A DNA stretch of 64,000 nucleotides. It comes from Allodiplogaster sudhausi. Lineage: Eukaryota; Nematoda; Chromadorea; Rhabditida; Diplogasteridae. The stretch spans positions 3,345,501-3,409,500 of the forward strand of contig CALZFC010000027.1 in NCBI GenBank assembly GCA_945643635.1, read 5' to 3'. The translations under genes and the position numbers were made by a program. Positions 1,820 through 63,591 of this stretch are shown piece by piece. Numbering within the stretch: the first letter of the stretch is position 1; each line of letters opens with the position of its first letter. The notes below the pieces were generated by a model, which did no database searches, had not been told where the DNA came from, and saw only the letters and a program-made list of their open reading frames with translations.

Positions 1820-4800
1820 GCTCCCTTCAATCAACACTAGTTCAGCTGACCGACATTCAAGCTGTCTTTGTCAGACGAGAGTGCACAGCATTTCTATGCC
1901 GTTCGGCAAATGAGGTTCACTGATTTCTTCTTAATTTTTGTTCTTAATTTAGTAGTTAATTTGTGTTCAGTGGTGTGGCTTCGTTGGCGGGAACATCTTC
2001 GGAAAGTGGAAGGCGTTGCAACTGTGGTGTTATGCTTCGAGCGAACGTTTGACGCGAAATCAATGTTAGTCAACACAAGAGGAGCTTGGCATAAGTTAAT
2101 TTATTTTAATTGTAAATCTTCAGAATTCATATTAAAGGGGTAAAATAATTATTTGCTAATGTGTTGTGTAACTCCATGTATTTTATTAATTGCAGTGATT
2201 GAAGTGATGGGCGGCTTCCATGAGTGGAGTTCAGGAGTGGCTGTCCAACCTGAGCTATTCTTGAACAGCGACAATCATATGGTAAGATAACTTGAAGAAA
2301 ATAAAAGCAACAGAAAGCAACCTGCTCAGATATCCATGCTACATATATTCACTTAGACGCTTAGTCAATATGGTGCAGTGAGTTTTTCTATTATGGAAAG
2401 ACTGCAGGTGCAAATAAGGGATCTGAGAATGTATGATTTTTTTTATAAGTTGATTATATATAGAATACGTTTACTTCTTTACAGTACACATTGTCCTTCC
2501 GAGATGGCAAGCCCGTACTGCGCAACTTCAAAGGTCTAGAACTCGAGATTTTCATCACAGTGGGGGGCATGCCGGTTAGTATGGGAGTTGCTGTTGTTTA
2601 TTGCGAGTTCAGGAAGCCATGCTAAATATTTAAATAGGTCGAGCTTTTGACATTGGTCCTCCCGAAAAATTGTGGTTAAAAAAGGAGACTCTTCCGAGCC
2701 AAGGTTTCATTCCAAAGAGGATAAAAAGAGCTGCTAAGTATATGGTCCTTTACGCCAATCTTACACTGGCGAAACCATATAAACTCAACGAAGTCGTTCA
2801 CGCCTTTTCTTTCAGTGTAGCAGATAGTTATCAAATAGGGTGACCTTTAATTCCCTATAATATGTATGCTCCATTCCGCCAGCCTCACTATGGCGCGACC
2901 ATATAAAAGTCAGACTTCCACTCATATACGTAGTGCAGATTTTTTTTGCATTTTTTTCTCTTATTCCCTTTATTTCAGACAGAACCACTGGGCTGGTCGA
3001 ACGTTCGTTGGCTTGCCGTTGTCAATAATAGCGAGGAGCTAATGTGCGCTCTATCAATGCCGCAGTCTCCGGTTCGATATTATAATTAAAATTAATTGGA
3101 AATTTAAATCTAATCATCTCATAAGATTATTTTGGGATTGCTAAATAACTAACATGACATCATTGATCTCTTCAGCACACGTCGCTGTACAGAGGCAAGC
3201 TACGCGCTGTCAAACTGATGGGGAGGACACCGAAGGCATCTGCATCCTCTACCGCCGCAGTGCTCTTTCTCCAAGTCTGTGCACTCTTTGGACGTACCGA
3301 TTATTTCTGGACAAGCGTGCATAATCTTGCATCTCTGATGTCTCTGACATTTAAAAGATGATTCTAATAGATTCTGTTAAATAATACTTCTTTTGCTGTA
3401 TGTGCCTTATCATTCATCACCCAATCACCCCTTTTCAGCCGATCGCAGGCGCCGAGTCCATCCGACAAGCGTCCGTCTCTCCGGACGGCAAGAATCTCGT
3501 GTTCTCGACGACGCGGACCTGCCATGACTACGTGCCGTTCGAGCGAAATCGGTCCGCTTCTTCTTCCAATTTTGCATTTGATTGTACAGAACTTATCAAA
3601 GGAAAGGAATCTCTCTTCGCTGCAAAGACAAAACTAAGAAGAAAAAACTTCTTTTATTGCTTTTTTTGTTGTTGTTGAGGAATTATGCTACAAGGCGGCT
3701 ATGAATTTGATTTCTGCAGAACGCCCGTGGATTCTGCCGTAGAGATGAAGCATCGAACAACGTTTGATAGCTGCGATCGAGTCAAGGAGTACCGCTTCAA
3801 GACGCTCGACCTCGCCGCCATCTCAGCCTCTGCGATCCTCGCAGTCGAGCGTGGTATCATTGGGAAAGAGACGATTGAGGTATTTTACATGGTTTTAACG
3901 GCCCAAATGTACAATTATCTTGATAAACATGTATGTTGTACTCTCGTCTTACAATTAGAAATATTGCCAAATATGTTGCTTTCTTGCCGAAAAGAAGAGG
4001 CTACATTTTGTTTTGTCTATCTGACAAACAATTTCGTAGCTTGGTTTGTAGGCTGGTCGTGATCACGGCCACGTCTTAGCCGACCTCTTCGCCAACCGAT
4101 TTCCGACTCTCTACAATGAAATGAAGCAGCGCTGCTGTCGCGGTATACCGGCAACGCTTGAGGCAAACTTCCCCTTTGCCCGGTTCCATTTTACTTCTTT
4201 TTTTATAATTTTGTTTTCCATTTTTTCTGTAAAGTGAGAAGTAATTTTACCATAACAGAAATGTTAATTGTAAAAAAAAATCAACAATGAAAGGCAAGTA
4301 AACGTCATGCTGCTCGACCTGATCTGCTATGGCACGGCACCAGTCGTCGTCGAGCCAGGAGATCGATGGCAGAGGCAATTGGTTGGCGGCTGTTTGCTCA
4401 TATTTGTAATCAATCGAATCTCTTCGCCACGGTTGCGATGCACAAAGATATACAGTAGCGTGCAATAAAAGTGTATATTTTGGTTTTTCATGCATATTTT
4501 TCTTCAAAGTGAATTTAAGTTTATGAAATTTTCAGGATTGCTTCTGTATAGTGACGCACTTATATTAGTATAATATTGGTTTCATTGATCCACTATTGAT
4601 CGAGAAAAAAATCAATAACTCAAATCACCCGTTTAGCAAATTTAGTCGTGCTGGATATAATGATTTATTTCTTAGATATCACTGGAGTTTTTATAGATAT
4701 TTTATTATATTTGCATTGAAGAACATCCCAATGATAACGTTTAGGCCTAGCTCTTGTTTAACCTCATGTTGTTACATGCTGGCTGCCTTCAGTTCGAGAT

Positions 4801-7800
4801 TCATTCAATCGGCCTGAGATGCAGAAGGCTCAGCAGGATAAAATCAATCATTTACTTCAATACGTATTGTAATAATGATTTTAATATATTCATAGATAAT
4901 CGTTTAAGCTATTCAGATAGTACTTGAGCAGTGGAAATTCCATGCTAACTATTAGAGTACGTTTTGGACACCGCGGTCAGCTTTCGTCAGCAGCCTAGAC
5001 GTACTTAAAGTGCTGCTATGTAGGGATTCATGTTTCAAACACGGTTTTGCCTATCTCAAATGATAGTTAATAGGCTTTTCCATATTGGGCAGCTTTCTTT
5101 TATCCCTGGCTTCATGTGGCTTCAAGAACCAGAAGAACGTTTAATTGTTCCCCATGTATGGAATACTACGGAATTCAACAAGGTAGGAATATTGAGGCAA
5201 ACATAGTTAAGATCGAATAAAAATGGCTTTAATCGATGTAGAAGAGTGCTAAGCAATCGCCACTGTACTAAAAAGATAATTTAATGCTGTGATTGATATA
5301 GTTACACCACCTGTCAAATATGACATTTTCTCGCATTTTTGGTGTCTTCAATCGTGCATTGGTTTCTTGAAGCCACATGAAGCCAGGGATAAAAGAAAGC
5401 TTCCCAATATGGAAAAGCTTATTAACTATCATTTGAGATAGGCAAAACCGTGTTTGAAACATGGACCCATTCATAGCATCACTTTAAGTACGTCTAGGCT
5501 GCCGACGAAAGCTTACCGCGGTGTCCAAAACGTGCTCTAATAGTTAACATGGAATTTCCACTGCTCAAGTAACTATCTGAATAGCTTAAACGATTATCTA
5601 TGAATACATTAAAATCATTATTACAATAAGTATTGAAGTAAATGATTGATTTTATCCTGCTGAGCCTTCTGCATCTCAAGCCGATTGGATGAATCTCGAA
5701 CTGAGGGCAGCCAGCATGTAACAACATGAGATTAAACAAGAACTAGACCTAAAAGTTATCATTGGGATGTTCTTCAATGTAAATAAAATGAAATATCCAT
5801 AAAAACTCCAGTAAGATCAAAGAAATAAATCATTTTATCCAGCACGACTAAATTTGCTAAACTTGTGATTTGAGGTATTGATTTTTTTCTCGATCAATAG
5901 TGGATCAATGAAACCAATATTATACAAATTTAAGTGTGTCACTATGCAGAAGCAATCCTGAAAATTTCATAAACTTTCCTTCACTTTAAAGAAAAATATG
6001 CATGAAAAACCAAAATATACACTTTTATTGCACGCTACTGTAGATCAAAGCCTGTAACGGCCCCAGCCCAACCTGCCACAAAAAAGTAGTGCCGGCCAGC
6101 AGGCCTTTGAGGGCCGGCCCAAACTTTTTGGGCCATTTACCACCTTTGCTTAAAATGTCAAGCTCTGGATGTCCAGTTTTTAATATTTTGGATATGAGAT
6201 GCCTTGCCCGGCGATGTCTAATCCAACTTTCTCATTGACAAGATTTTCGCGGCTTCATAATCTCTCGCAAATAATCTTCATTTTAATTTGAACATGTCTT
6301 TTAGGATGCATGTCTGTTGGCTGTCTCCAGGCTGGCACATTCGTTGGGTCTCGGAGGCTCGCTTCATTGCTGCCAAGCGTGCAAAGCCGCCAAAGTTGTC
6401 CATCTGCGTCTTGAGGTTTGTAAATCGGCTCGGACAGTCAATGGCTTCCTCGACTGGGAACAAGATGAGAATGCATCGAGAAATCACGAACAAATAAATA
6501 AACGAGCAAGCCGATTAGATATCAAATTAAAGACAAATTGAATTTAGAGCGGAAGCAGTCCGATCGCCTTGGCGCCTGAGCACGAGCTTTGCTTCCAATG
6601 CGCTGATGGAGTGCAAGTCATTTGTGATAAGTAAGTAGTAATTGCCGATTGCTCACTTTCTCGTCAGGTTGTAAATTCGCTTCTTTTTGAAGCTTCTAAT
6701 GTGGTTGATTGTTTTTTTTTCAATTTGCTTAAAGAAAGAATGAGAAAAAGTCTCTTTAAGACGCATCTGGGCGACTCACAGCGCGTACGTCCCAACGATG
6801 CTGGAATACGCTCCTTGTTTGACGCTAGAGGTTACATACATTCTGCGGTCATTTACATAAATATAGCGCATTAAAAATTTTGCGACTCTTAATTGATGAA
6901 ATGAGTTCAGTTCGAATCTTCGGTGGTGCGAGTAGTCGACTCTTTACTGCGCGACCCTCAAATGTTGTGTGATGCAAACTTCAAGACGGTATATTTGCTT
7001 TATTAATCCTTCATACATACAAACAACTCTTATAAGGATAAATGAAAAGATGAGATCAGGGATTTATAACAAAAACTTGGCCAAAAAATATTTTAGCCCA
7101 AAGCAAGAAACAAAAAAGACAAAAATATATTGTTTTATTCTTAATTTTGGTAGATAAGCAAAGTGAACTTCTTTATCTTCAACAACAGGAACACAATATG
7201 GTTATGAAAAATTGTGGAAATGTTTATTATGCTAAAAAGAGATATAAAGAACTGAGAAAGTAGAACCCCATAGTTTTGGCATTTTTCTGGTGGAAGAGAC
7301 CATCCGAAAGATTAGCCGTAAATGTATCTTTTTTTGTGTCGACCGAAACAAGGATACATACTTGCAAAAGCTTTTGTTTAAACACGAAAAACACTGCAAT
7401 TCTGGATGAGATGACATGCTGACTTTCCTTGGCCAATACGGGAATGCTGAAAGTTCCCACACCACCGGATCTTTTTTTCCATAGGTTAAAGGCGCGGCAA
7501 TTGTTTTATCTTCATTGTTTTCATACTTTACCTCCATTTGCTTCCAGCTGAAGTGCATCCTCACCTTCGCAGACTTCATGCAGATGAAGGCGCTTGCAGA
7601 GGACGTAGCATATGCACTTGTTTACAGTGGTTAGGCCTGTTATCAAAAAAATCTTCAAAATTAATTGTTTCATTTTTTTCCTTCTATCCATGGGCAAAGT
7701 GAAGTAATTGCTAAAGTGATTAAAACTATGTCATAATCACAAGAGCCGTTTTTCTCCAGCACATTACTGGAACATCAAGGAAGTCATCGAGTGCCTCCTC

Positions 7801-44368: not shown

Positions 44369-46087
44369 GACAGCATGTCTGTAACCTTTGAGCACGACCT
44401 GCCCTGGGGAATTTTTTTCGATTTCGATTATGAAAATTGGCTCACCTATACAACTCGACGTCCTCTACAATATACCGTACATTTTAATTTTTTTCAGAAA
44501 AATTCCGTTCGAGAAACAGTACAGTACCCTTCAAAATATGATGAACCATAACTCGGCTAGTTTATAGAATTTGACGAAAATAAAGATACCATTCGATAGC
44601 CCGTTGGACGCACTTCAATTTTGATCTTGGGTGAATTTTCTAAAAAATATATTTTCGACCCAAAACACGGCCCTGAACATTTTTATGACCACTTTTTGAC
44701 AAATTGTTGTTCATTTTTGGAAAGTGTACCCTGCAGTTTTTTTGATATGTTGTAGCGCGTGAAATTTTCTACAAGAATTCATTTTCATTACAAAAATTCC
44801 GATAGGCACACGTTGCGAAAAATGCGCGCGAGTCGGTCAAAATGGTGCATTTTCGGTCGCCGAGACACAGTGCAAGCGCATTCATCGATCCATAACTACG
44901 CTCAATCTTAATATTACAAAATCGTAAGTATATCATCTAAGAGCTCTCATGGAGATCTTCAAATGTTACATACATACTTTTATTGAAAAGTTTGGATTTA
45001 TATGGGAAATTTCTTTCTGTATGATAAGAAGGCTTAAAAAACTACTTCCGAAACGTTTCCACATGCCGAATCATACATCAAAAGAAAGAGGATGAAATTT
45101 AGTACAAGATGAACCCCTTTAAATGAAATTCGATGAGTACGATACTTTGTTATAAGCCATAAGATTAGGATTACAACGCCTCAAGGAAAATGTGTGAAAA
45201 ACAAGATTGGAATATTCTAATTCGAATAAACTAAACTATGAATTCTTTTGCGAAATGACAGCGACGCTACCGGCAATACTCTCATGGCTTATAACAAAAG
45301 ATTGTAAGCATGGAATTTCATTTAAAGGGGTTCATCTTGTACCAAATTTCATCCTCTTTCTTTTGATGTATGTTTGGGCATGTGGAAACGTTTCTGAAGT
45401 TGTTTTTTAAGCCTTCTTATTATACAGAACGAAATTTCCCATATAAATCCAAACTTTTCAATAAAAGTATGTATGTAACATTTGAAGATCTCCATGAGAG
45501 CTCATAGATGATATACTTCCAATTTTGTAATATTAAGATTGAACGTAGTTATGGATTGACGAATGAGCTTGCACTGTGTCTCGGCGACTGAAAATGCACC
45601 ATTTTGACCGACTCGCGCGCATTTTTCGCAAGGTGTGCCTATCGGAATTTTTGTAATGAAAATGAATACTTGTAGCAAATTTCACCCGCTACAACATATC
45701 AAAAAACTGCAGGGTACACTTTCCAAAAATGAACAAAAATGTTCCAAAAAGTGGTCATAAAAATGTTCAGGGCCGTGTTTTGGGTCGAAAATGGATGTTT
45801 AGAAATTTTTGCCCCAGATCAAAATTGAAGTGCGTCCAACGGGCTATCGAACGGTATCTTTGTGTTCGTCAAATTCGGAAAATTAGCCGAGTTATGGTTC
45901 ATCATATTTTGAAGGGTACTCTACTGTTTCTCGAACGGAATTTTTCTGAAAAAAAAAATGAAATGTAAGATATGTTGTAGAGGACGTCGAGTTGTATAGG
46001 TGAGCCAATTTTCATAAACGAAATTGAAAAAAGTTCCCCAGGGCAGCACCCAATAATGCCGTGCTCGAGTCTTATGGAGAGGCTGTC
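44369..46087. mobile_element. Long foldback element flanked by TTAA
   Basis: Left end GACAGCATGTCTGTAACC and right end GGAGAGGCTGTC are inverted, and both are directly flanked by TTAA. The inverted repeat runs almost the full element (about 800-850 bp per arm, centre near 45.23 kb). Arms differ by scattered mismatches, so it is not recent. TTAA duplication is typical of piggyBac-like elements; no transposase is present. Outer ends resemble those at 16.2-16.97 kb and 21.29 kb. Confidence 0.8.
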
Positions 46088-47394: not shown

Positions 47395-48541
47395 ATGAGA
47401 GTAGGCAACATGCGGGTGCATACCCACCCCTTTCAGAGAATGCCACGTCGTCTCATTCTCTGCATGCCCCTGTCCCTTCCTCTCTGCATGTTTCTGCTTC
47501 CCCTTCGGTCCATGTCGCTGTTCATCAAGCCATTGAAAGAGTTGGCACTGCAATTAGATCATGGTGGTGCTCCCTTGGGAGGCAGAGAAAAGAAAGAACT
47601 GATCAAGAAACGGGAGGCAGAGATCAGCGCACTATCTGAACAAATTGAAGACTTGGAAAGGAAAGCCAAGAATGCCAGCACAACAACAGAACCGCAAGAC
47701 CTGCAGTCATTACTGCCTGCTACAACACAGAGAAGCAGAGAACATGCAGGAAGACGTAAGAAGTAACGTTGAATGCAATGTCTGCGATAGATCAATCCAC
47801 TTCTGCTGTGAAGGGCTCTTGACATCACAAGACATTGCAAGGGAAATGCATGAAGGGGAAGGAGTAACATGCCGGGTGTGTTCTGGTCTCACGTCTATCG
47901 CGGAGATACAGAGAGAGATGGAGAAAGTACATTCAGCATCGACAGAAGAGCTGAGGGATCTCTTGGAAGAAGCTAAGCGAAAGCTTACTGAAGCGAAACA
48001 AGCTGTTTCCTATAACGGGACTCACTACAAGGAGCTAGAAAAAAGGTTCCGAGAGGTGGGTGCCGACTTCCAAGCATACAACCAGGATCTCACTGGTAAT
48101 CACATCATGAAATGCTTGAAAGAAGGAGCACCTGAGAAGCTATGGTCTGCTTTCCCGCAGACTCCGGAGGTGTTGAACAGAGTGGAAGCAATGAAGCTGC
48201 TAGGTCGAATTGTCAAGTACGCTGAAGCGCGTGACTTTCAGAACACAGAAATCCTACAGCTAAAGAGGATCCTGTATCGGTTTGAAGAAGTGTGCTCGAA
48301 GCTTGAAAACGGCACAATATCAAGAACGCCCAAGATGCACATGCTTCTCCAGCATGTCTTCCCATTCATGTCCACTTACGGAAGCTGGGGTGCCATGAGC
48401 GAACAAGGAATAGAGTCATTACATGCAGCGTTTAAGAACCGACAGAGACAATACGCCTGCATAAGAAGCACGGAGAAGCAGTGGAGGGCAATTGCAAAGC
48501 ACTTCACTATCGAATCAGGAACACTCTACGGAAGCTGCTAG
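47395..48541 (+). pseudogene. Transposon-derived protein fragment with coiled coil and PHD-like finger
   Basis: Frame 1 (47395-47766) gives MSLFIKPLKELALQLD and a coiled coil (KKREAEISALSEQIEDLERK). Frame 2 continues to TAG at 48541 with a C4HC3-like finger (VECNVCDRSIHFCCEG, then TCRVCSG), another coiled coil, and a C-terminal region containing PKMHMLLQHVFPFM, YGSWGAMSEQGIESLHAAF and KNRQRQYACI. The last part resembles the end of transposase-derived proteins common in nematode and other animal genomes (KMH..L.H...F...GS.G..SEQG.E..H). The frame change near 47.65-47.75 kb indicates a frameshift or missed intron. No catalytic core is seen, so this is a 5'-truncated remnant or domesticated tail. 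The finger plus coiled coil could bind chromatin; that is inference. Confidence 0.5.
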
Positions 48542-52235: not shown

Positions 52236-55200
52236 CTAAGCCAAAAAGGCTGCACTCTGCAGGTCGGTGGCGCTGTCTCGTCTCGCCGAACTGCTCGGCC
52301 GCTGCTTCTCTCTCTTGGCCGAAGAGGAAGCAGAAGACGCTCGACGACGTCGCCGCACCTTTCGACAGCAGATGCAGCACGTTACGATGATGGCAAAGAG
52401 CTGGAAATGAGAGAGAAAAAAAAAGAGTTTTTTTTTAGAAAGAAATCTTTCTCTTCTTCTTCTACTTCTTCTTCTTCTTCTCTTTTACATCTTTTTTTAA
52501 TGCATTTACATACCTATTCTGGATTTTAAATTAGTATTATTATTATTGTTATTTTTCTTTTAATATAAATTTTTTTAAATCAGATATAGTAATGCAAATT
52601 TTAGAAGAAGAAAAAAATTCAAACCTGGATTACGGAGCCCGAAAACGACAGCGTCATGATCATGTAGATCGTCTGCTTCACTTGTCGTTGCAAGAAGCGC
52701 AGGCAGCCCTAGGTACATATAAGACAGTGTGAATTAAAAAGTTTGGTTTTTCTCTGCATTTTTCAGTTTTGCTGTTATTTTTGGCAAATTTGGCAAGTAA
52801 AACACACAAGCAAATATGGCAATATTTTATTTATTGATTCAAATTTGTCATGGCAAATAAGACGGTTAATAAAATGACGGACACAATGTACAAGCGAAGA
52901 AAATGGATGATCCACAGAAATATGCTCTAATTATTGACAACCGGGCTTCGGCAAATTTAGCAACAAAAAAATTTGTTGCGGCAAAAATGAAGGCCGTGAA
53001 ATATGGATGGGAAGCATGCCAAATTTGATGGCCCCCAAAATTTTCCATGGCACAATTAGCAAGGATCCAAAATTTTGAACGTTTTGGCAAGTCTATCAAG
53101 TATGGAAAATGTCACTGCCAAAATAAACAGCTATCGGAATTGTCAAGTCGATTCGGCATTTTTAGCAGCTGAGAAATTTGCCACGAGGAAGCGACTGTCG
53201 GCCGAGCAACTTGGCAATTTTGACAGTCGTCAAAAATGGCAACTTGGCAAATTCAACGGGCATAAAAAATGTCAAGCCAAATTTTCGACCCTTCAAAAGT
53301 GGCAAGCCAATTTTAACGGCTATGAATAATGGCTGGCAGTATTGACAACCGCTAAAAAAGGCAAATCCTTTTCTGACCGCAAAAAGTCTTCTCGCTCCTA
53401 TTAAAATCGCGTTCTTCCTCAGATCACTAAAGTTTCATAAACAGCATATATAAAGAAAATGCAAGAAGGAAGCAATGACAATACCACATTCAATCAGTCA
53501 TGAAACAAGAGTAGTTCTACAATAAGATTTCTGCATAAATAAATACCATTTAGCGTTCACCATTACATTCTAGATGTTATTTGATAAATGTTAGCAAAGA
53601 AGACATACTAGGCACTCGAGTCGCCGTCGTCACTGGAAGAAGCAATTCTTCTAGCTGCGAGCTGCATGTTCTCGTGTGAGTTGCCCATGGGGAATCCGTG
53701 ACCACGCAAGAAGTCGTAGATACACTCCTCTTCAACAACGTCCACTGTTTCAGCTTCTCTATTGCAGGCCTCACATCTTTCCAGCAGATCATCGAGCAGC
53801 AGTGCAAGCGGAACGGCTGACAATCAGGATATTAACTATCATAAAAAATTAACTGTATGCAAAAATACAAAATAGCCCTTGTTTTGAAACTATAATTGGA
53901 CGGTAGACGGATCACAAGGCCTCATAAATGTCTATTATTAGGCTTGTTTAATAATTTTTTTATCGGATGCAATTGACATATGTTCATACCCTGTTGCCTC
54001 CGTAGCCGTGCTGGAAGCTCTGCAATCTCTGCTTTCCGCTCATCGTTCATGAAAGGAGCAACAACTTTGAGAAGGGCAGCACACGCTGCTTCGGCCTTCG
54101 CGACGTCAGGAAGCATCTGCCCAGGAAGAGTCGCTTTTAGTTCCTGTTCCGCATCTTCCTGTAAAGAGAAATGAAAAATAACAATTCGGATTCAGAATCA
54201 ACATAAAATTGAAAAAAAACAGGCTGTTGAGTGGCCTTAACAACTACCGTAGAAAAAAGATAGTAATGTAAGCTCCATGGTGAGCCACTTTAATAGCGCA
54301 AGATAACTGAAAAAGAGACTAACAGTGAAGAGATTCAGCGAAGGCCCGTCGCAATCGGCTGCCGCGCGCGACAACAGATCTGGAGTCATACAAGCAGCTG
54401 CCTTGAATCGGATTGCTGAAAAAACAACTTTCCAACGAACAGAAGAAGGGCGAGCTTTTTTCGACTAGAAGGCATGAATAATATAGCTAAGAGAGAAGTA
54501 AAAATTAATTAAAACCTCCATTGCACTTGAAAAAGCAATAAAAACCTCCATTGCGCTTGAAAAAGCGGAAGACTCGTTGCTTAACGCGGTTCTTGTATTT
54601 CTGAGCGAATCGACCAAGCTCGCTGAACATGTACTGCGTCGACGCTGGCAGGACGGTAGTGTATCCAATACCAGCGATGACTTCAGAGAGATCTGAGCAT
54701 AGGCCTACCGTAATAATGCTTGTTAAGAATTTTTCTGACTTGGCTCTATTTTTTTAATAATTAGTTACCTTGAGGAGTGTAAATGTTTTCCCTTCGGAGA
54801 GCTCGAGAGACGGAGCCAAAGAAAGCATCCACTTCGTTGTGCGTGTGCCCGACTGCCAAGTGAGCACAGATGATCTGAGATCACACCAGACTTATTTACA
54901 AGGTAGATTATATCTAGAAAATTGACCCTGCGAATTCACATGCGCAATGTTGCGAACATTATCTTCTAGTTCAACATACTGTGATACTTTTTTTAGAGTT
55001 ATATAAAAGACGGACCTCATCGATTGGCAGATGAAGCATCACCCAGCCGAAGAATGCATGCAGTTTCTCCGACTTCATGCACGGCGCATTGTCAGCAATA
55101 ACGACGAGACGTGAAGGGATCACGTCCGCCTTTCAAACAATACATTTTGATAGTTATTTCGTCAGTCTCCCCATATTATAGTACATAATTTACAATATCG

Positions 55201-58200
55201 AAAACCTTACCTGTGAAAGCGCGTGAATGATGTAGCTTCCAAGTTGATCAGCGCCTCCAGTATGTGCTTCGAAGACATTCAAGAAGGCAATGTTATGGAA
55301 CTTGCTGCCATCAATGTCTAAACGAATACACTCTTATTCTCAAAACAATTATACATAATGCAAGACTCTCAGTAGTTACGGTAATCGGACAAATGAAAAG
55401 AACAAACTACGGTATTGTCAGCACAGTAGAATGCATAAAATGAACAACTGACGCATTCGTGAGAGTTGTACAGCAGTCAGGTCGACATTCTGGCGACTCA
55501 CGTCACCAATTCTCTTGGGTCTCCGTACAAGACAAGGAATCTGAAATGGTTATCTTAACGGAATGAAAGTGAAAACATTCTTTAAATAGTGAAATCAACT
55601 TATGTGGTTTGCAGCGTAATACAATATTAACGATAGAATTTCAGAGATCAATGTTAAAACCTTCGTCGATTTTTTGCTCATTCCGTCCACTCTCAGCACA
55701 AGTAATTCGCTAGGAGACGCTCTCGAGATCTGGTCAGCAGTTCCGACAGTTACCCGATCAATCCTGACAACAGTTACAGTCATAGATAAAAAAATGTTTA
55801 AAAAAAAAATGCTGAGGTGTTTGAATGCATGATATTTTGCCAGTCTTGTATTTTATATCTTAATGTCAGATGTAGTAGATGACTTAACAATTTTTATCAT
55901 ACCACATTGTTATTTCATTAACTTACTAGTATTTAATAAAGCAGCAAAAAAGATCCCAAAATGTCGTAAATACGCACCACATGGCTTCGTAGTGCTGCTT
56001 CCTGAGCTCTAATGCCTTCTGCTTTTCGGCCCCAGCACGTGTAGAGATGATGTGAGCGAGACCGACACAGATGTCACAGCGCAGATGATTATCGGACTGA
56101 AAAAGATAAATGAAAAAGATAAGGAATATAACAATAAAAAGGAAAGCAGAAAAGAAAGTTCGTAATAAACATCACAATTACTCACCTTTCTAAATCGCAC
56201 TTGCATCCCTGTGAGCTTAGAGAAAGTCGAAAAGCGGAGCGGCGTGTCGCAGAGGCGAAGAAAGGAGCTAAAGGTGGAGTGTGGTTACGACTGAAGAAGT
56301 ATTGTAGCGTAAGATACGCTGTTAGATAAAAAAAGAAAGCCAAAATATTTCTTCTAAAATTCTAACGACATATAGTTGAAATTCTCAATGGTTGTATTGA
56401 AATGATACCTCTTGTTCAGTCCGGCCGGCATCATGATTCCACCTTGCGGGTGCTCCTGCCCATGTCGAAGCACCTCTGCCATCATAGTCGAGCACGCATC
56501 AATCGTAGTCTGTTTTTTAGATTGCGCGGCTGCGTGAACGTGCTCAGCCTGACCGTTCTTAGCCTTCCGAAGCCAGTCCACCAGTCTAAAAGAGAAAGCT
56601 TCTATTCTCAAGGAACTTAGAACAATGACGAAATAGGTCTAGTTTTCGGTGACAAAACCTCCCCTCCTTGGTAGGATGTCCCAGAGCCCCGGGATAGCCC
56701 TTTTCTAACCTCTTGTACCTTCCCATCAGCCATCTCTAATATTTTAGCACTGACTTATTAGTGAGTAAGTTATAAATTGATAACTAGGATGAAATTATAT
56801 AATCATACCTTGTCAGCCTGACGTTCACGATTACGCAGAAGAGCTCGGCGCAGATTGACTTCCCATTTATGATGGGCAGAATGCTCGCTTCGTCGCCATT
56901 CAGAGTTGCACTACTCAGGGCCTGAAGTTTAATTCAAATACCTTTCCAATGCGACGTAACTTTTCGCTATTAGCCGAAAATAAGGAAACAAATAACAATT
57001 CGAAAATATGGAGAAATAAAACATTCCAAACGAAGTAAAGCCACGACATACCAGTGCTCGAAGGACTTCTCCTCGGTTTCGCTTCCCCTTCTCTCGCATT
57101 TCCTCGTATAGCCTTGCTCGAATCATATTGATATCTAATCTGAAACAGCGTTACTATTTTATGTTAAGAAAAAAGCAAAAATTTGTGACGTCATTTTCCC
57201 AATGTACGGTAAGTATACATTTCATGCAATTTTGCTCGTAACTACGTGCAAGTCATAACTTTGCGGCGTTGTTTGAAATAAAGGTTAACGAGAAAAATTA
57301 ACAGTATCTTCGTCTTCTCCATTTAAAATAATACTATGAATTATCATTAGCTGGGTGCCAAAAGTGCAAATACCGAATACCTACCGTAACTCTGGAATAC
57401 AACGTCAATATAGTATAGGAATACCAGTTTAGTGTTCTCCGTACCGATAAATTTTGGGAAACTTAAATTTCGAAAAAAGGCCTTTGGGTGTGAATAATTT
57501 AAATGCTCCTATAAATTATGCTCAATTTAATTTGATGACTTATACTTGCTTATATTTATCGGTTCTACCTTGTCACGTAGCTGGAGCAGTAGTGAGCACA
57601 GCAACGTATTCGCATTACAGCTGTATCTTCTAGAACGTCCTTGAACAGCTTGGCGTATTCCTCGCCCTTCTCTAGAATCGATACAACAGCACCCGGGTCC
57701 ATCGCTAAAACAGATATTGGTGCATATAAACTAAGCGACTTAGTTTAAGCTTAGCATTTACCATATGATCCACAAAAATATGTTGAAACAGTATCCAGTT
57801 ATGAATCGTATTACGAACATACAATCACATTTAAAGCAGCCCTTTAACAGAATTTATCACAGAACTGAGGAAGAATTGCCTCGCATGGCTTGGTTCAATA
57901 ACGAAAAAGGAACAAATGTCATATACTTGTTCTCCTGGTCCTAGAACCCCCGATGCACAATTTGAGAATCATGGTGTTAACGAACCCAATATAAAGGTGA
58001 CGCTTAAAATAAAATTAGCTCGATAATCCCAAAAAGCAAAATAAATATATAAAAAGATTCCAAAGAGAATTCCAAACCTTCAAAGTAGTGGGAGCTCACT
58101 CGAAGAGGCGCGAAGAAGCAGCCACGCTTCAATCTTCTCTTAAAGTGTAAACTATTCATATGAATTATAGTTGAAGAAAAAAGGAAAGGCAAAAACAGAA

Positions 58201-61200
58201 ACATTGACACAATTACAAGCCTAACACTGAACTAGTTTCATTTGTCATTTATTAGTATTTGAAAAATTTCTGCACATCAAAAACCGCGCGACGCGTGACC
58301 GCAACGCAGGCTGGCAAATTGCCAAGTATTTTCGTATTGTCAGCAATAGCCGCAGCGGTGGTTTCATGGATCGCATGAACTTTTTGTTATTAACTTTTTC
58401 TGAGATTTGGCGTCTTTTGTTTTTAAATGTTTGCCGCTTTTTACTTAATTTTTAGCGCATAAATTTGAAATGCTCACCTAGGACTGTGCGTTAGTAGTGT
58501 AAGCCGATGTCTCGATTTGCCAACTCGATTTACCTTGCTCAAACTCGTTCCCCTTTTACCTCAACACCATTCCACACCCTAAGAATTTAATCTCAGAATG
58601 CCGTTGAGGTCTTACATGGCTGATCTGGCAGCGAACGAAATGGAGAGGCGGTCTTCACTCTCTGACACTGTCCCGGTAAGAGCCTTATTATTTTCGATGA
58701 TTTTTCCACTTTAGGATCGTTTTTCTATACGATCGTTTTTCTTTTCTTCGAGTTAAAGTTTTGTGAACACGGGGAAGGAATTCCACTACAATTAGCTCCG
58801 TTCAGGAAACTCAATTCGGAAGCGAGAATGCAAGGCCGCTAAGGGATATTTCGAACTTATCGACCTGGTCGAGCCCCGCGACCAACTACACTATTGCGGT
58901 ATATTACATCTTTTCAGTATTATAGTATTCATCCTTTCGTTTTGAATCCTTCAGTTACATAACTATAGTTTCAATAACTATATTTTGGTCATGCCTTGAG
59001 AATATATAAAAAAAAATTAATTACCGAACACTGGATCGTTATATTCGCATTCTTCGCATCAAAAAACACTTTCGATTTTGAGGGGCATTTCTTTGTAGAA
59101 AATTTTGGTGCGGGAATAACCGAATATTACCTCCGTTTTAATTGTTGCAGCCAACGAAAGCTAAGAAGCGTCGCATGACCGCGATTGAAACGAGATCCAC
59201 GCTTCTTCATTCCTCAGAAACTGCAAAAGGAGTCATCAACGGCTGGATGTCTAGTACGAAGGAGTCTGTAGAGGTCAGTCGAGTATTCCATCTATGAAAT
59301 CATTACTGTGAGTGTACTGTTCATGTTCTCGAAATGTTTATGGGACCCACGGCCCTCCAGCAGCGCTAATAAAGTTTTTTAAGCGTAATTTGTCTATTTG
59401 AGCAACTTATAACTTGTATAATGTTCAGTTAGCTGTCGCGGAACTATTCGTTGACGGCATTCTGCGAAGTGTCTACCCCGACCATGTCGAGCGGATGAAG
59501 CAGCTTCTTCTTTCGCGTCATATGCTGCCCGAGAGTGTCGTCCCTTTCGTGTTCCACGATGGGCGAAAGTATGTTTATTATCCTGATTGTAAACAATGAA
59601 GTGTGGAATGTAAATGAAAAAAATTGCACTTTTATTCAGATACATTTATTTATTTTTTAATGAAATTTAAATATTTTGTGCAGATTCCTGGTGTTAAATG
59701 GACAGCATCGAGTGACTGCCCTGCACCAATTGAATGGCGAATCTGTCAAGAGAGGCGGTACACCATTCTTTGAAGGAAAGGTGTGTTTTATAATGTACAA
59801 AAGAACGTCATGTTTTCATTCTCTAGTTAAACCTTCATTCTTTCCAAATGTTAATTTTATTGTAAACATAAGCTTAGACTTTCTTTCCTTTACAGCTCAA
59901 GTGCGTCACCGTTAAACTGTCACGAGATGCAGCATCACTCCTTGCACTTAAGTCTGAGAAGAGCGAGAAGGAGTACACCGTGGCGGAAAAAGTTTGTTCT
60001 TAATCGTTTCTATTATGAATTGCAGCAGCGTGAAGTCATTAAGACGTCATAAAGCTGATTTTATTCGCTTTTGCCAAACCTCTTTTTAAGTATTGTTGGA
60101 ATACTGTTTCAGGCATCTCACGTGAGAAGGATGCTGCGCGTTCTAGGACTCTCTCGAGAATCAACTCTTTCTGCGGAAACGACAAGATTCACGGACGCAC
60201 CAAGGATGCGACTGCTGTCACAAACTGTCCGTTCTACTTTTTTCTTACCTTTTATGTGCTAGAATCTTAATATCCTGGATTACTTCATTGTTTTTTATTC
60301 TAATAATTAGAGAACAGCGGAAGGTATGTTCTCGGCTTACAAAAGATGTCACGCAAAAAATTAGTTAGATTTGTCTTTAAAACTATGAACTCGTTTTTGT
60401 TCAGGTTCATCTTCTGCTTCCCGCTTCGCAGTATCCTTCTGAGCCGATTATTCGTTTGGCGGACTCGGATGAGGCCATATACAACCCCTTCACAAGAGTC
60501 TTGGTGCGTTATTTTCTCATAAACAACAATAGGAAAAGTTCACTTTTTAATTACATATTTGATGCAGTCTCGTGAGTTCGACTACTTCAATAACTTCTCG
60601 GTTTGGAAAGTGGTTCTGAAGAAAAGGAAGCATAATACGAGCGCCATCAACGCCCTCCTCTCTGAATTGGCAGACGGCAAGATAGATGCAAGAGAATTCA
60701 AGGAGGTAGAATAACTTTTGTATTATTTGCTTCCAAACATATTCAGTTTGCTATCTATTTTTCATATTCCTTTACAGAAGTTGACGCAAACGGAAGAATG
60801 CGCCGTACAGCTCCTTCTCTCTCAAGGATACTCTGAAGAAGTTGCGAGCGCCGTTCTAGAAGGCCTAAGCAACAAGGAGGCCTACCGAGGGTTACGGTAG
60901 GTGCATTAAAACTTTTTGGATTAAAAGTGTTATTGTGTTAGGCTTAATAGTTTACTTTGACTTTGCTATGATAATTACAACTTTACCCAGACTAATTCGC
61001 TCATCACGCATGACAAGACTGGATGGGGCTGAGATTAGAAGAAGATTGCTGATGCCGATTGAGAAGGATCGGGCAAAAAGATCGGAGTTTGGCTCTTGCG
61101 CCAGTTTCAAGACTGTCGACATCAACTGCGACTCACCTCCCTTTGCAATTGTCGCCGAGCCTGTTAGTTGTATGAAAATGTAGCTCCAATCTATTTTCTT

Positions 61201-63591
61201 AATCATTTTTGTATCGCAGGGTGCAAATGTATTCATCGAGGCCATGCTGAAGAGACGATCATGCCTCGTCATTCTGCTCGGCAACGGAAACAGCGCCTTT
61301 GATGCTCTGCGCTGTCGTCTAGGAGTCAGCGAGATCCACCAACTGTACCTGTCTCTCACCAAGCAAGTTGGAGGTATCTGCTTCATTTTATTCTCTCTAA
61401 ATGATCTATAGCCGGATTATTCTGGCTCTTCTGATAAGCATCATTGACATTTTGCAACATATTTAACATTTAGATTACATTCACAACGCCATCCTGCCAT
61501 TTCGTCTCCTCTTCAAGCTCACGGGCGAACAATACACGCTTCCCAAGATCTGCGAGACATTTCATGTGCGATCGACTCTCTTGTCGATGGTCAGCTTTTT
61601 TAACATGTTGTACGAAACTTGTTTTATTAAATATAAGTATTTAATGTTTTAATTGCTTTCACATGAACTACAACGAGAGCAATAGATTGTATTCTAATAG
61701 CAATAAAATGAGGCGTCATATCCACCTTACAATGTTCAATTTGTTGGCAGTTTTAGAATGATTCGATAAGCCTCTTCCGGAAGATGTACGCCATGTGTGC
61801 GGATGAGGAGAGCCCTAATGCAATCAGTACAAGCTTCTTTGGCCCGATCGAGTCATTCAAGAGTAAGCTCCCTCAATTATATCAATTTGCTAGATTTTTT
61901 GTAGTCTTACAATTAATAGAGAGCAAAGTCTCGCGGTCCTTAGTTGATCGTCAGGTTCGTTTAGTAAGTCCAGAATCATATACGGGCACAACATACCGTT
62001 TTCATATCGAAACTTTGCAAAGTCTATTTTAGGCTCAGTGGCAATCTTCGCTGTCGCCTCCTCCTCCATTCGAATCGTCGACTCAAATTGTGACGAGTTC
62101 GAAGGCGCCTACAGAGCATATCGCCAGAGGCTATCGATTCAAGCTGACGTGGAATCGGATGATGATGTCAGTCGGGATATTGATGATTGATTCATTTGAA
62201 TTCTTTTTTGACCGTTATATAATTCGTAACTCCACTGATTCATTCCGGTTTTGTTACATAGTTAACACGATTAATAGATCCATTATTATTGTCCGCCTGT
62301 GAATTTAATGAATTTAACGGACAATTTGATCTCAATACTGTTATATTCTTTCGAAATATGAATCCTTTCAGTTTTGCCCCCAGTCTTTGCAACATATCTG
62401 TAGCAGTTTACCGTATCACTTTAAATCTCATTCCTTTTCGACTATTCCATGCTCCATATTTCTTGTACTATGTTGTAATTGATCCGATCATGAAATTCCA
62501 CTTTTTGCCAAATTTGACGGTCGTTGAAAATGACGAGCCAGTTTTGACAACCGTCAAAAAGGCTTTGCCAATTTTGATAGCAATAAATTTTGCCAGACTT
62601 TTTTGCCACCTGTTTAAACTGCCATGCCATTTCTGCTAGCCGCCAAAATTGGCAAGCTGATTTGCAAATTTTTCACTCTAATATTTTGGCTTGGCAAATT
62701 TAGCAGTTGATCAATTCTGGCAGGTTTTCTTGGCAGATTTATCAGCTGGTTTTTTTGGCAAAAAAGCCCACTCCTCCTCGAGAAGATGTGACAAATTTTT
62801 CGACCGTTTTCTGTGCCATGTTATTTTAACACTTGTACAATTTTGCCCCGCCCCTTTTGACTCGTTTATTTTTTGGTTAGGCTGTTTTTGCCATTTTAGA
62901 CAGCTGTTAATTTTGGCATGATCAATATTAATGAATAAACCTTGGTGGCATTCTTGACAATCGTACAAATTGCCGTGGCATAATAATTGGGTTTGAAAAC
63001 TGGCAAATTTGCTTGCCAAAAATAAAAGCAAAACTGAAAAATGCAGAGAAAAACCAAACTTTTTAATTCACACTGTCTTATATGTAGCATGTTTTTTTGA
63101 TTTTTAATCAATTACTGATTTTTTTTTCAGAAAAAGTTAAATGTAAAAATTTAAAAACTTAAACGGCGATAAAAAAAATAAGTTTAAAATCTAAGGCTGC
63201 CCAAGGCAAGCGTATCTTGATTTATAGTCAAATAGCTTTAGAATTATTAGTTAATTTTTTAAATAAATAAATTTAAAAGCTGAAAGGGCGGGAAATTTAA
63301 ATTTTATATTACTGATACCGCATAGTAGATGTTCGATGGATGATCGGAGACGCCGCATCCTTCGGAGAAGGAGCGGCAGCACGAGTCGGGGATGTACTGG
63401 GTCGGCCGCTTGCGGAGACCTGGCAGGAGGAGCAGCGGTCGCGAGGGGTCGTGCGTCTCGCGCACGAACGGCATCACTGTCTCGCCGTTCGGTGCCTCGC
63501 GATGCGTCCAGTCCTCGAAGCCGTCCGAGCCACAGCAACGGCCCTATAATAGGATGATCTCTCTTCCATTCTCTCTCTCCTTCTAAGTTCC

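Follow-up and report, generated by a model that had tools for sequence, protein, structure and literature searches.

What would a relative of the partition protein ParB be doing inside an animal DNA transposon? The question arises from the window analysed here, a 64,000-nucleotide stretch of the nematode Allodiplogaster sudhausi (assembly GCA_945643635.1, contig CALZFC010000027.1, positions 3,345,501 to 3,409,500). A sequence-only reading of this stretch had noticed two divergent open genes between terminal inverted repeats (TIRs), one with a GQHR core and the other with the pattern D..D..GHTH..VD. As gene predictions, both were borne out. Is the element mobile, what might its two proteins be, and do they belong together?

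The element, of the family we call A, covers 10,373 bp from 52714 to 63086, measured from outer end to outer end of the TIR match. Its arms, 74 nt each (52714 to 52787, plus strand; 63013 to 63086, minus strand), are 99% complementary over the 74 nt, and the left one contains the constant end ATATAAGACAGTGTGAATTAAAAA, starting at 52717. The terminal 27-mer, allowed up to three mismatches, occurs at two places in the window, the two ends, against an expectation of 0. Among ten family-A copies the constant terminal block is ATATAAG...CTTATAT; C precedes it at nine of ten left ends and G follows it at nine of ten right ends. The repeats had been described as about 75 bp long with TA borders: the repeats stand, but a constant TA border does not. 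At five family-A ends (C59 left, C4 left, C16 right, C46 right and C270 right) an outer TA is absent. The duplicated target may therefore be TA, ATAT or TATA within the constant block, and the flanks of the copies are compatible with any of these. If it is TA at 52718-52719 and 63081-63082, the element is 10,361 bp long.

Evidence of movement comes from its copies. The genome has five further near-identical copies with unrelated flanks; together with the one in the window, family A has six copies of 10.2-10.4 kb. The window's copy and C345 align across 10.37 kb with 0 mismatches and 2 gaps. The 0.9-kb flanks of family-A copies show no mutual match at 1e-5 (low-complexity filter on), and because these flanks differ we rejected assembly duplicates as the source of the copies. 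Two copies of family C, L031 and L032, share 99.98% identity across 9.3 kb and have different flanks. A stretch of about 170 bp, with the predicted start codon of the DDE-like gene in it, is missing from three of the six copies of family A (C16, C46 and C59). TIR-bearing copies with shortened genes are also present in the genome and look like ordinary deletion derivatives. At C335, facing TIRs lie 12.6 kb apart. With TIRs and multiple copies at unrelated sites, the element is mobile and best explained as a cut-and-paste DNA transposon; its family and at least five related ones occur in this nematode genome. A Pfam search of four other open reading frames of the window was uninformative.

Which gene would encode the transposase? 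The minus-strand gene (57702 to 53608) is predicted to have 16 exons and to encode 626 aa. Its predicted exons are 57702-57569, 57391-57374 (uncertain), 57139-57052, 56921-56809, 56585-56409, 56267-56186, 56096-55978, 55763-55661, 55540-55453, 55332-55211, 55129-55016, 54874-54769, 54692-54546, 54415-54324, 54158-53990 and 53816-53611, with the stop at 53610-53608. A start at 58159 was rejected, since an MDP, MDI or MEL start at 57702 is common to the families. The protein contains the motifs RVDGM (residue 268), IADNAP (359) and GHTHNEVD (395). Its first conserved acid, in LRVDGM, is encoded by the exon at 55661 to 55763, the second, in IADNAP, by that at 55016 to 55129, and the third, E or D in GHTHNEVD, by that at 54769 to 54874. 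D270, D361 and E400/D402 are invariant in all five aligned proteins (five of eight models; D, E and E2 were left out); the family-E copy L029 seemingly lacks part of the DDE core. Pfam PF25273 (DUF7869) is matched by all five, the window protein scoring 53.6 bits against a curated cut-off of 26 (E 2.8e-14). Apart from DUF7869, the Pfam families listed for these proteins are two below cut-off, neither a Tc1/mariner transposase domain; the profile gave two chance-level matches only against PDB sequences. The conserved D...D...GHTHxEVD pattern and the DUF7869 match therefore make a DDE-type transposase likely. DUF7869 is by description a family of unknown function; its presence here inside defined TIR elements suggests a transposase. 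Among the papers searched, none named DUF7869 and none GHTH, and the two element proteins found no match at E 1 in a protein database search (about 8,000 candidates scored each) and none in viral contigs.

The plus-strand gene (58598 to 62190, stop included) is predicted to encode 570 aa in 15 exons: 58598-58675, 59151-59273, 59429-59568, 59684-59780, 59896-59991, 60113-60226, 60405-60503, 60568-60705, 60778-60896, 60991-61162, 61220-61373, 61474-61589, 61757-61862, 61955-61963 and 62039-62190. The GQHR core (59700 to 59711) reads VLNGQHR in all six aligned proteins (six of eight models; the partial F and E2 were left out) and VLKGQHR in the partial copy L021. The ParB core had been recognised by eye, with the expectation that a profile search would return a ParB/Srx fold, and two profile comparisons agree. 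All six proteins match phrog_1033 (best E 1.1e-6; window protein 3.7e-5). In hhalign, the ParB-like profile matched a profile of 28 ParB proteins (the query and 27 homologues hand-picked for spread from 157 found, 120 of them listed) with a probability of 92.5 over 175 columns and a pairwise E of 5e-7; a DDE profile, the control, gave 0.2%. The Pfam and NCBIfam ParB models miss these proteins, none being listed at E 10, where HMMER filters drop most matches above 0.1. By profile comparison, the predicted protein is a ParB relative.

In ParB, box II (GxxRxRA) contacts CTP and box III is ENxQR. The box II region reads GQHRIRAL in four of the six aligned proteins (B, C, D and H) and GQHRVTAL in two (A and E); read by eye, the alignment of the six shows no ENxQR motif. 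The hhalign alignment spans the helix-turn-helix region, and the HTH_ParB model is not among the listed matches. Against PDB sequences the profile found no match. The phage and bacterial partition proteins of phrog_1033 (Curvibacter phage PCA1 UZZ64548.1 and relatives) have an N-terminal ParB domain and a following stretch, both alignable to the element protein. The phage PCA1 protein, however, is 263 aa long against about 570 aa, and the element protein has no recognised HTH_ParB model and no ParA context.

Do the two genes travel together? The genome has 20 other DUF7869 stretches, and in 17 of them a ParB-like gene runs on the opposite strand, with a best E of 4.1e-5 or better in each. These 17 represent family A and five others, and all six families have the gene. 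We rejected a separate family F and count it as E because the two are 97.8% identical over 6.8 kb; the further families are thus five, not six. Same-TIR copies without the ParB-like gene had been named as the finding that would speak against the pair, and this check does not do so: with 40 of 144 candidates scored, each of the ten family-A places where half or more of the DDE-gene DNA is present has ParB-like DNA adjoining it (part only at C42). The genome contains 23 ParB-like loci, 14 within the examined DUF7869 stretches and 9 outside those examined, of which one or more may be a host-only copy. The claim of ParB-like and DDE-like genes in one animal transposon (of a nematode, with SL1 genes) thus extends to many copies and several families.

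Between families, with columns of local identity below 20% dropped, dN/dS is 0.17 (A-E), 0.24 (C-D) and 0.23 (C-B) for the ParB-like gene and 0.18, 0.17 and 0.15 for the DDE gene in the same pairs. Within family A constraint is weaker (A versus L028: 0.55 for the ParB-like and 0.39 for the DDE gene). Trees of the two genes are congruent, the order of B, C and D being unresolved in both. Intron positions common to A and C number 12 of 14 and 13 of 15; this is the independent comparison, since models for B, D and H were built on a family C guide and those for E, F and E2 on a family A guide, so that sharing inside these groups leans on the guide. Five of the models (B_parb, D_parb, E_dde, F_parb and E2_parb) are partial or contain errors. 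Taken as coding sequence, the two predicted genes are kept together under purifying selection.

What might the ParB-like protein bind? The motif GTACGCGTAC, an almost perfect palindrome, was counted with up to two mismatches in one copy per family, in the outer 1 kb of both ends and in the interior: 8 and 0 matches in B, 13 and 0 in C, 11 and 0 in D, 16 and 3 in H. Shuffled ends gave means of 0.25-0.32 and a maximum of 2 in 60 shuffles each, a control somewhat biased by the discovery of the motif through comparing the same ends with interiors. In two families, H and C, it is arrayed in tandem as a 39-bp unit (scores 400 and 339, respectively). Family A has no match to GTACGCGTAC. Its own short imperfect palindromic repeats, TGGCAANNTTGCCA-like and TTTTGACNNNNGTCAAAA-like, lie at 52782 to 53370, where a 33-nt direct repeat occupies 53206-53271, and at 62500 to 63010. 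They are weak, with 6 matches against a shuffle maximum of 4 and 9 against a maximum of 2, and here too the control is biased, the motifs having been picked from the same sequence. A different repeat is in line with the different TIR of family A and with its ParB-like protein, which shares only 30-33% identity with its counterparts in B, C, D and H. Short of proof, the arrays near both ends in four families suggest that the ends of an element are bound by its own ParB-like protein. Of the three roles put forward in the sequence-only reading, namely end recognition, target choice and nucleoprotein assembly, the palindrome arrays make the first plausible, and no more than that.

We consider it an even call that a DUF7869 transposase acts with a ParB-like accessory factor that binds the subterminal palindromes of its own element. 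By metal-ion chemistry of the D/D/(E or D) type, the DUF7869 protein would cut the element ends. The ParB-like protein, a DNA-binding factor of the element's own, would bind the palindromes much as ParB binds parS; dimerised or spreading, it may bring the ends together or flag the element to the transposase. The family-A protein would bind sites of a sequence other than GTACGCGTAC. En/Spm-type elements likewise have a catalytic protein and a second protein that binds subterminal repeats, a two-protein logic that we compare with no claim of sequence relation.

It is equally conceivable that the transposase binds the arrays. Large DNA transposons of plants and animals usually have subterminal repeat arrays to which the transposase or a partner protein binds, and the invariant cysteines of the DDE-like protein, including CC...C near its N-terminus, could belong to a DNA-binding module. 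The ParB-like protein would then do something else, such as regulating transcription between the divergent genes, while the arrays served the DUF7869 transposase itself or a host factor. We find this possible though rather unlikely: the usual ParB site is a palindrome in arrays, the very form of GTACGCGTAC, and between families the ParB-like gene is constrained nearly as strongly as the DDE gene. Could the ParB-like protein instead act enzymatically on ends or joints in transposition, as a nuclease or NTPase of the ParB/sulfiredoxin fold? The fold includes some nucleases, and phrog_18056, 'ParB-like partition nuclease', matches the phage ParB that served as a link (E 9.4e-4), yet no listed PHROG family of the element proteins is named a nuclease and no catalytic signature can be assigned, which makes an enzyme improbable. 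We are more doubtful still of retention or marking, by which the protein would coat the element in a centromere-like complex (to retain an excised circle, tether it to chromosomes or resist silencing); its ParB ancestry and the parS-like arrays would suit such a role, as would algal ParB-methyltransferase accessory proteins, for which the excerpt cited here proposes binding and modification of the transposon that carries them (PMC12477816). Neither predicted element protein, however, matches a ParA-like protein or a methyltransferase. Passenger genes do occur in transposons, but a ParB-like gene captured once by chance is very hard to credit and largely refuted by its presence in 17 of 20 other DUF7869 stretches and six of six families, the congruent trees, the shared introns and the between-family dN/dS of 0.17-0.24.

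How new is the pairing of a ParB-like with a DDE-like gene? The sequence-only reading knew of no described animal element with this pair, which is only partly right: the excerpt cited reports ParB-like accessory genes, fused to a DNA methyltransferase, in algal transposons, namely Sola1-1_Ec32 of Ectocarpus and others in green and red algae (PMC12477816). These are the closest precedent, being in eukaryotic DNA transposons whose ParB-like gene and transposase are encoded on opposite strands (PMC12477816). The algal protein, as excerpted, has 1104 aa with a methyltransferase domain and belongs to a Sola1 element (PMC12477816). Here, by contrast, the protein has about 570 aa, no Pfam or NCBIfam methyltransferase match is listed for any of six ParB-like proteins, the partner is DUF7869, and the host is an animal with several such families and palindrome arrays. 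KolobokP composite-like transposons, according to the portion cited, are likewise animal elements that join a DDD/E transposase to a second protein uncommon in transposons, but their pair is a Kolobok transposase and a His-Me finger homing endonuclease (PMC9587614).

The best reading of these sequences is a little-described transposon group whose ParB-like protein would bind subterminal arrays. New here are the GTACGCGTAC palindromes at both ends of four families, with nearly none in the interior. DUF7869, an unnamed eukaryotic domain family, gains a candidate function as transposase, and a ParB relative has been retained as an element protein across several animal transposon families. Binding to the discrete palindrome arrays is measurable, and with two predicted proteins and copies that are young and near-identical the proposal is open to direct test. 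Only tentatively do we go further, to an animal transposon superfamily that moves via a ParB-parS-like complex, loading at the end arrays, possibly in a nucleotide-dependent manner, and bridging the ends for the DUF7869 transposase, so that a partition machine would have become a factor of transpososome assembly. Should the arrays prove to be ParB sites, transposition would have reused a partition-type mode of DNA binding.

The element at 52714 to 63086 of the window is bounded by TIRs of 74 nt that are 99% complementary. The terminal 27-mer of the TIR occurs at only two places in the window, the two ends of the element (none expected). Two divergent predicted genes fill the element: a ParB-like gene on the plus strand (58598 to 62190; 15 predicted exons, 570 amino acids) and a DUF7869 or DDE gene on the minus strand (57702 to 53608; 16 predicted exons, 626 amino acids). 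The sequence-only reading, which described TIRs of about 75 bp around two divergent genes, was right in its overall observation, and the element is richer than described there.

The D..D..GHTH..VD pattern noticed earlier in the minus-strand gene is conserved. All five aligned DUF7869 proteins match the Pfam profile PF25273 (best E 5e-17), and D270 (RVDGM), D361 (ADN) and E400/D402 (GHTHxEVD) are invariant in all five. These residues would form the DDE triad of an RNase H-like fold.

Is the plus-strand protein related to ParB? No Pfam or NCBIfam profile scored above cut-off against the ParB-like proteins; the weak matches were to DGQHR (TIGR03187; one of six proteins, E 0.12) and DUF6551 (three of six, E 0.017). 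Among the PHROGs, phrog_1033, a ParB-like partition protein, is matched by all six members (best E 1.1e-6), the window protein matching at E 3.7e-5 over residues 82-194. Three more ParB-like PHROGs are matched weakly by element proteins. For a motif-independent test we used a phage link protein, the top match of a phage tblastn search, whose E of 0.1 is not significant by itself. This protein is annotated as a ParB-like partition protein, has an HTH_ParB domain and matches phrog_1033; its relatives are named ParB/RepB/Spo0J. A ParB comparison profile was built from an alignment of 28 proteins of this type. With hhalign, the element profile matches it at a probability of 92.5% (E 5e-7) over 175 columns, extending from the N-domain as far as the middle domain; the control, the DDE profile against the same ParB profile, gave 0.2%. 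VLNGQHR, present in all six aligned element proteins, lies opposite VDGHHR of the ParB profile, and the partial copy L021 has VLKGQHR. The protein departs from classical ParB in two motifs: ENxQR was not found in the aligned element proteins, and the second arginine of GxxRxR is missing from those of families A and E. We conclude that the plus-strand protein is very probably a ParB relative; the profile searches bear out the ParB-like core first read from its sequence.

Other features of the window were recorded. Two nested long inverted repeats, 91-94% complementary, form large foldback-type structures at 4447-6046 (arms of 475 + 222 nt) and 44488-45955 (430 + 255 nt). Numerous inverted repeats, 120-220 nt long and 74-95% complementary, link 1-17 kb with 23-31 kb (the 25 longest of 153 pairs), as though 1-31000 held two oppositely oriented copies of a large stretch. 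On the plus strand, 47603-48541 is an open frame of 312 amino acids with a Cys/His-rich stretch and EQGIESLHAAFKNR near its end. Its only Pfam match is a sub-threshold one to Mod_r (7e-4), and it is possibly part of another transposon protein. Genome-wide, SL1 RNA has at least 26 full-length matches, all under the Rfam cut-off (best 50 of 60,808 candidates); both SL1 places examined contain GGTTTAATTACCCAAGTTTGAG, the nematode SL1 leader, so the host genome is that of a nematode.

A DUF7869 profile search of the whole genome (352 Mb, 382 contigs) found 27 places. Six of them comprise the copy in the window and five others of its family, A, that are nearly identical to it, each of those five retrieved as two stretches. 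The copy on contig C345 differs from the window copy by no mismatches and two gaps over 10.37 kb; the remaining ones are 10.2 kb long and, indels aside, 99.3-99.6% identical to it. Pairwise comparison of 0.9-kb flanks (blastn, 1e-5) gave no match, so the copies are separate insertions and not a single duplicated region. The copies on C16, C46 and C59 all lack some 170 bp that surround the start codon predicted for the DDE gene. The family-A TIR occurs at at least 40 genome places (best 40 of 704 candidates), and facing pairs are spaced 3.5, 5.2, 9.4 and 12.6 kb apart; the first three spacings enclose pieces of both element genes. The 12.6-kb pair (C335:66488-79108) has perfect TIRs, and neither gene matched there among the matches listed in two element-gene searches; it may be a derivative carrying other content or two adjacent copies. 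Family-A copies lacking the ParB-like gene were also sought. Wherever half or more of the DDE-gene DNA is present (ten places), ParB-like DNA lies next to it, at C42 in part only (best 40 of 144 candidates). Separately, the final 103 bp of DDE coding sequence (window 53609-53711) recur at 87-93% identity at at least 14 other genome places, and at some of these a second piece matches as well, at 65-68%; these places are perhaps a short derivative family.

The pairing extends beyond family A. Around the other 21 DUF7869 places, two of which lie together on C41, we took 20 stretches of 10 kb, and in 17 of them a ParB-like gene lies opposite in strand to the DUF7869 gene. It is absent within the 10 kb taken for L019, L022 and L035: L019 can be aligned to its sister copies across about 2 kb only, L022 belongs to an inverted pair of which it makes up one half, and L035 matches its sisters along the DDE side alone. 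By DNA identity the stretches fall into five further families, B (L020, L023, plus L035 and L019), C (L024, L025, L031, L032), D (L026, L027), E (L029, L030 and the inverted pair L021/L022) and H (L033, L034, L036-L038), with one extra family-A member, L028 (E2 in the gene models), 94% identical to the window element. A separate family F (L021/L022) was merged into E, to which it is 97.8% identical, reducing the total from seven families to six and leaving the odds of all conclusions unchanged. That pair, at C18:5412775-5427627, is a large inverted pair with two family-E DDE genes tail to tail, 99.7% identical over 3.8 kb. DNA identity between families is 67-78% wherever they can be aligned; A/E and B/C/D/H do not align at the DNA level. 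A genome search with one ParB-like domain gave 63 exon matches in 23 loci (counted from the listing), 14 inside the examined DUF7869 stretches and nine outside them.

Both genes are under purifying selection. For the ParB-like gene, dN/dS is 0.17 between A and E (567 codons), 0.24 between C and D (519) and 0.23 between C and B (464); for the DDE gene the values are 0.18 (421), 0.17 (555) and 0.15 (593). Synonymous sites are saturated in the C-H and A-C comparisons. Higher values, 0.55 for the ParB-like gene and 0.39 for the DDE gene, come from the comparison within family A (window versus L028). The two genes have travelled together. Their protein trees are congruent, separating A, E2, E and F from B, C, D and H, with the B/C/D branching order not resolved in either (supports 68 and 47). 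Across this divide, protein identity is 30-33% for the ParB-like and 44-45% for the DDE protein. Intron positions in the ParB-like gene agree between A and each of C, H and D at 12 of 14 sites, and between A and E at 13 of 14; in the DDE gene, A agrees with C at 13 of 15, with H at 12, with D at 10 and with E, whose DDE model is damaged, at 8.

The TIR ends are related across families, ATATAAGACAGTGTGAATTAAAAA in A and ATATATGACGnnGCCAACTAAAAAA in B, C, D and H. Twenty-three of 24 ends of 12 copies start with ATATATGACG, the exception being the left end of L020. All ten family-A copies examined (six full, four derivatives) have ATA|TAAG on the left and CTTA|TAT on the right, preceded by C in nine of ten and followed by G in nine of ten. 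In the 12 copies examined from families B, C, D and H, the ends are without exception ATA|TGACG and CGTCA|TATAT. CATATG-like sites are therefore preferred for insertion, and the target-site duplication may be TA, ATAT or TATA.

Words enriched in both element ends over the interior led to a palindrome, GTACGCGTAC. With up to two mismatches, and in one copy per family, counts for the two ends (outermost 1 kb) versus the interior are 8/0 in B, 13/0 in C, 11/0 in D and 16/3 in H; dinucleotide-shuffled ends gave means of 0.25-0.32 and a maximum of 2 (60 shuffles each). In H and C the palindrome is part of a unit of 39 bp repeated in tandem (TRF scores 400 and 339), and several units in H contain one further inverted repeat of the form TGCTCA...TGAGCA. 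The top autocorrelation lag is 39 bp at C right and both ends of H, 38 bp at C left, and 49 bp at B right and both ends of D (39 is not the top lag at B left), peaks in B, D and H right (0.32-0.37) barely exceeding mid-element controls (0.29-0.32). Family A has no palindromes of the GTACGCGTAC type. Near both its ends are different short palindromic repeats (6 versus a shuffle maximum of 4, and 9 versus 2), the two motifs having been picked from the same sequence in which they were counted. The arrays are likely candidate sites of the ParB-like protein, the least secure step of the analysis.

In the open-access literature searched we found no mention of DUF7869 and nothing on 'GHTH' with transposase. 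A 'parb' match, PMC3671162, was rejected as the abbreviation of a virus name. Among the matches listed, the one relevant ParB/transposon report is PMC12477816, which reports a eukaryotic transposon with an accessory protein of ParB-like type; such a protein is therefore not new. An animal DUF7869 element with parS-like arrays and no methyltransferase had no precedent among the matches listed from this open-access literature. Taken as a whole, these elements almost certainly form a genuine group of recently mobile transposons in which the DUF7869/ParB-like pair is conserved, and the odds seem even that the ParB-like protein would act by binding the subterminal arrays.
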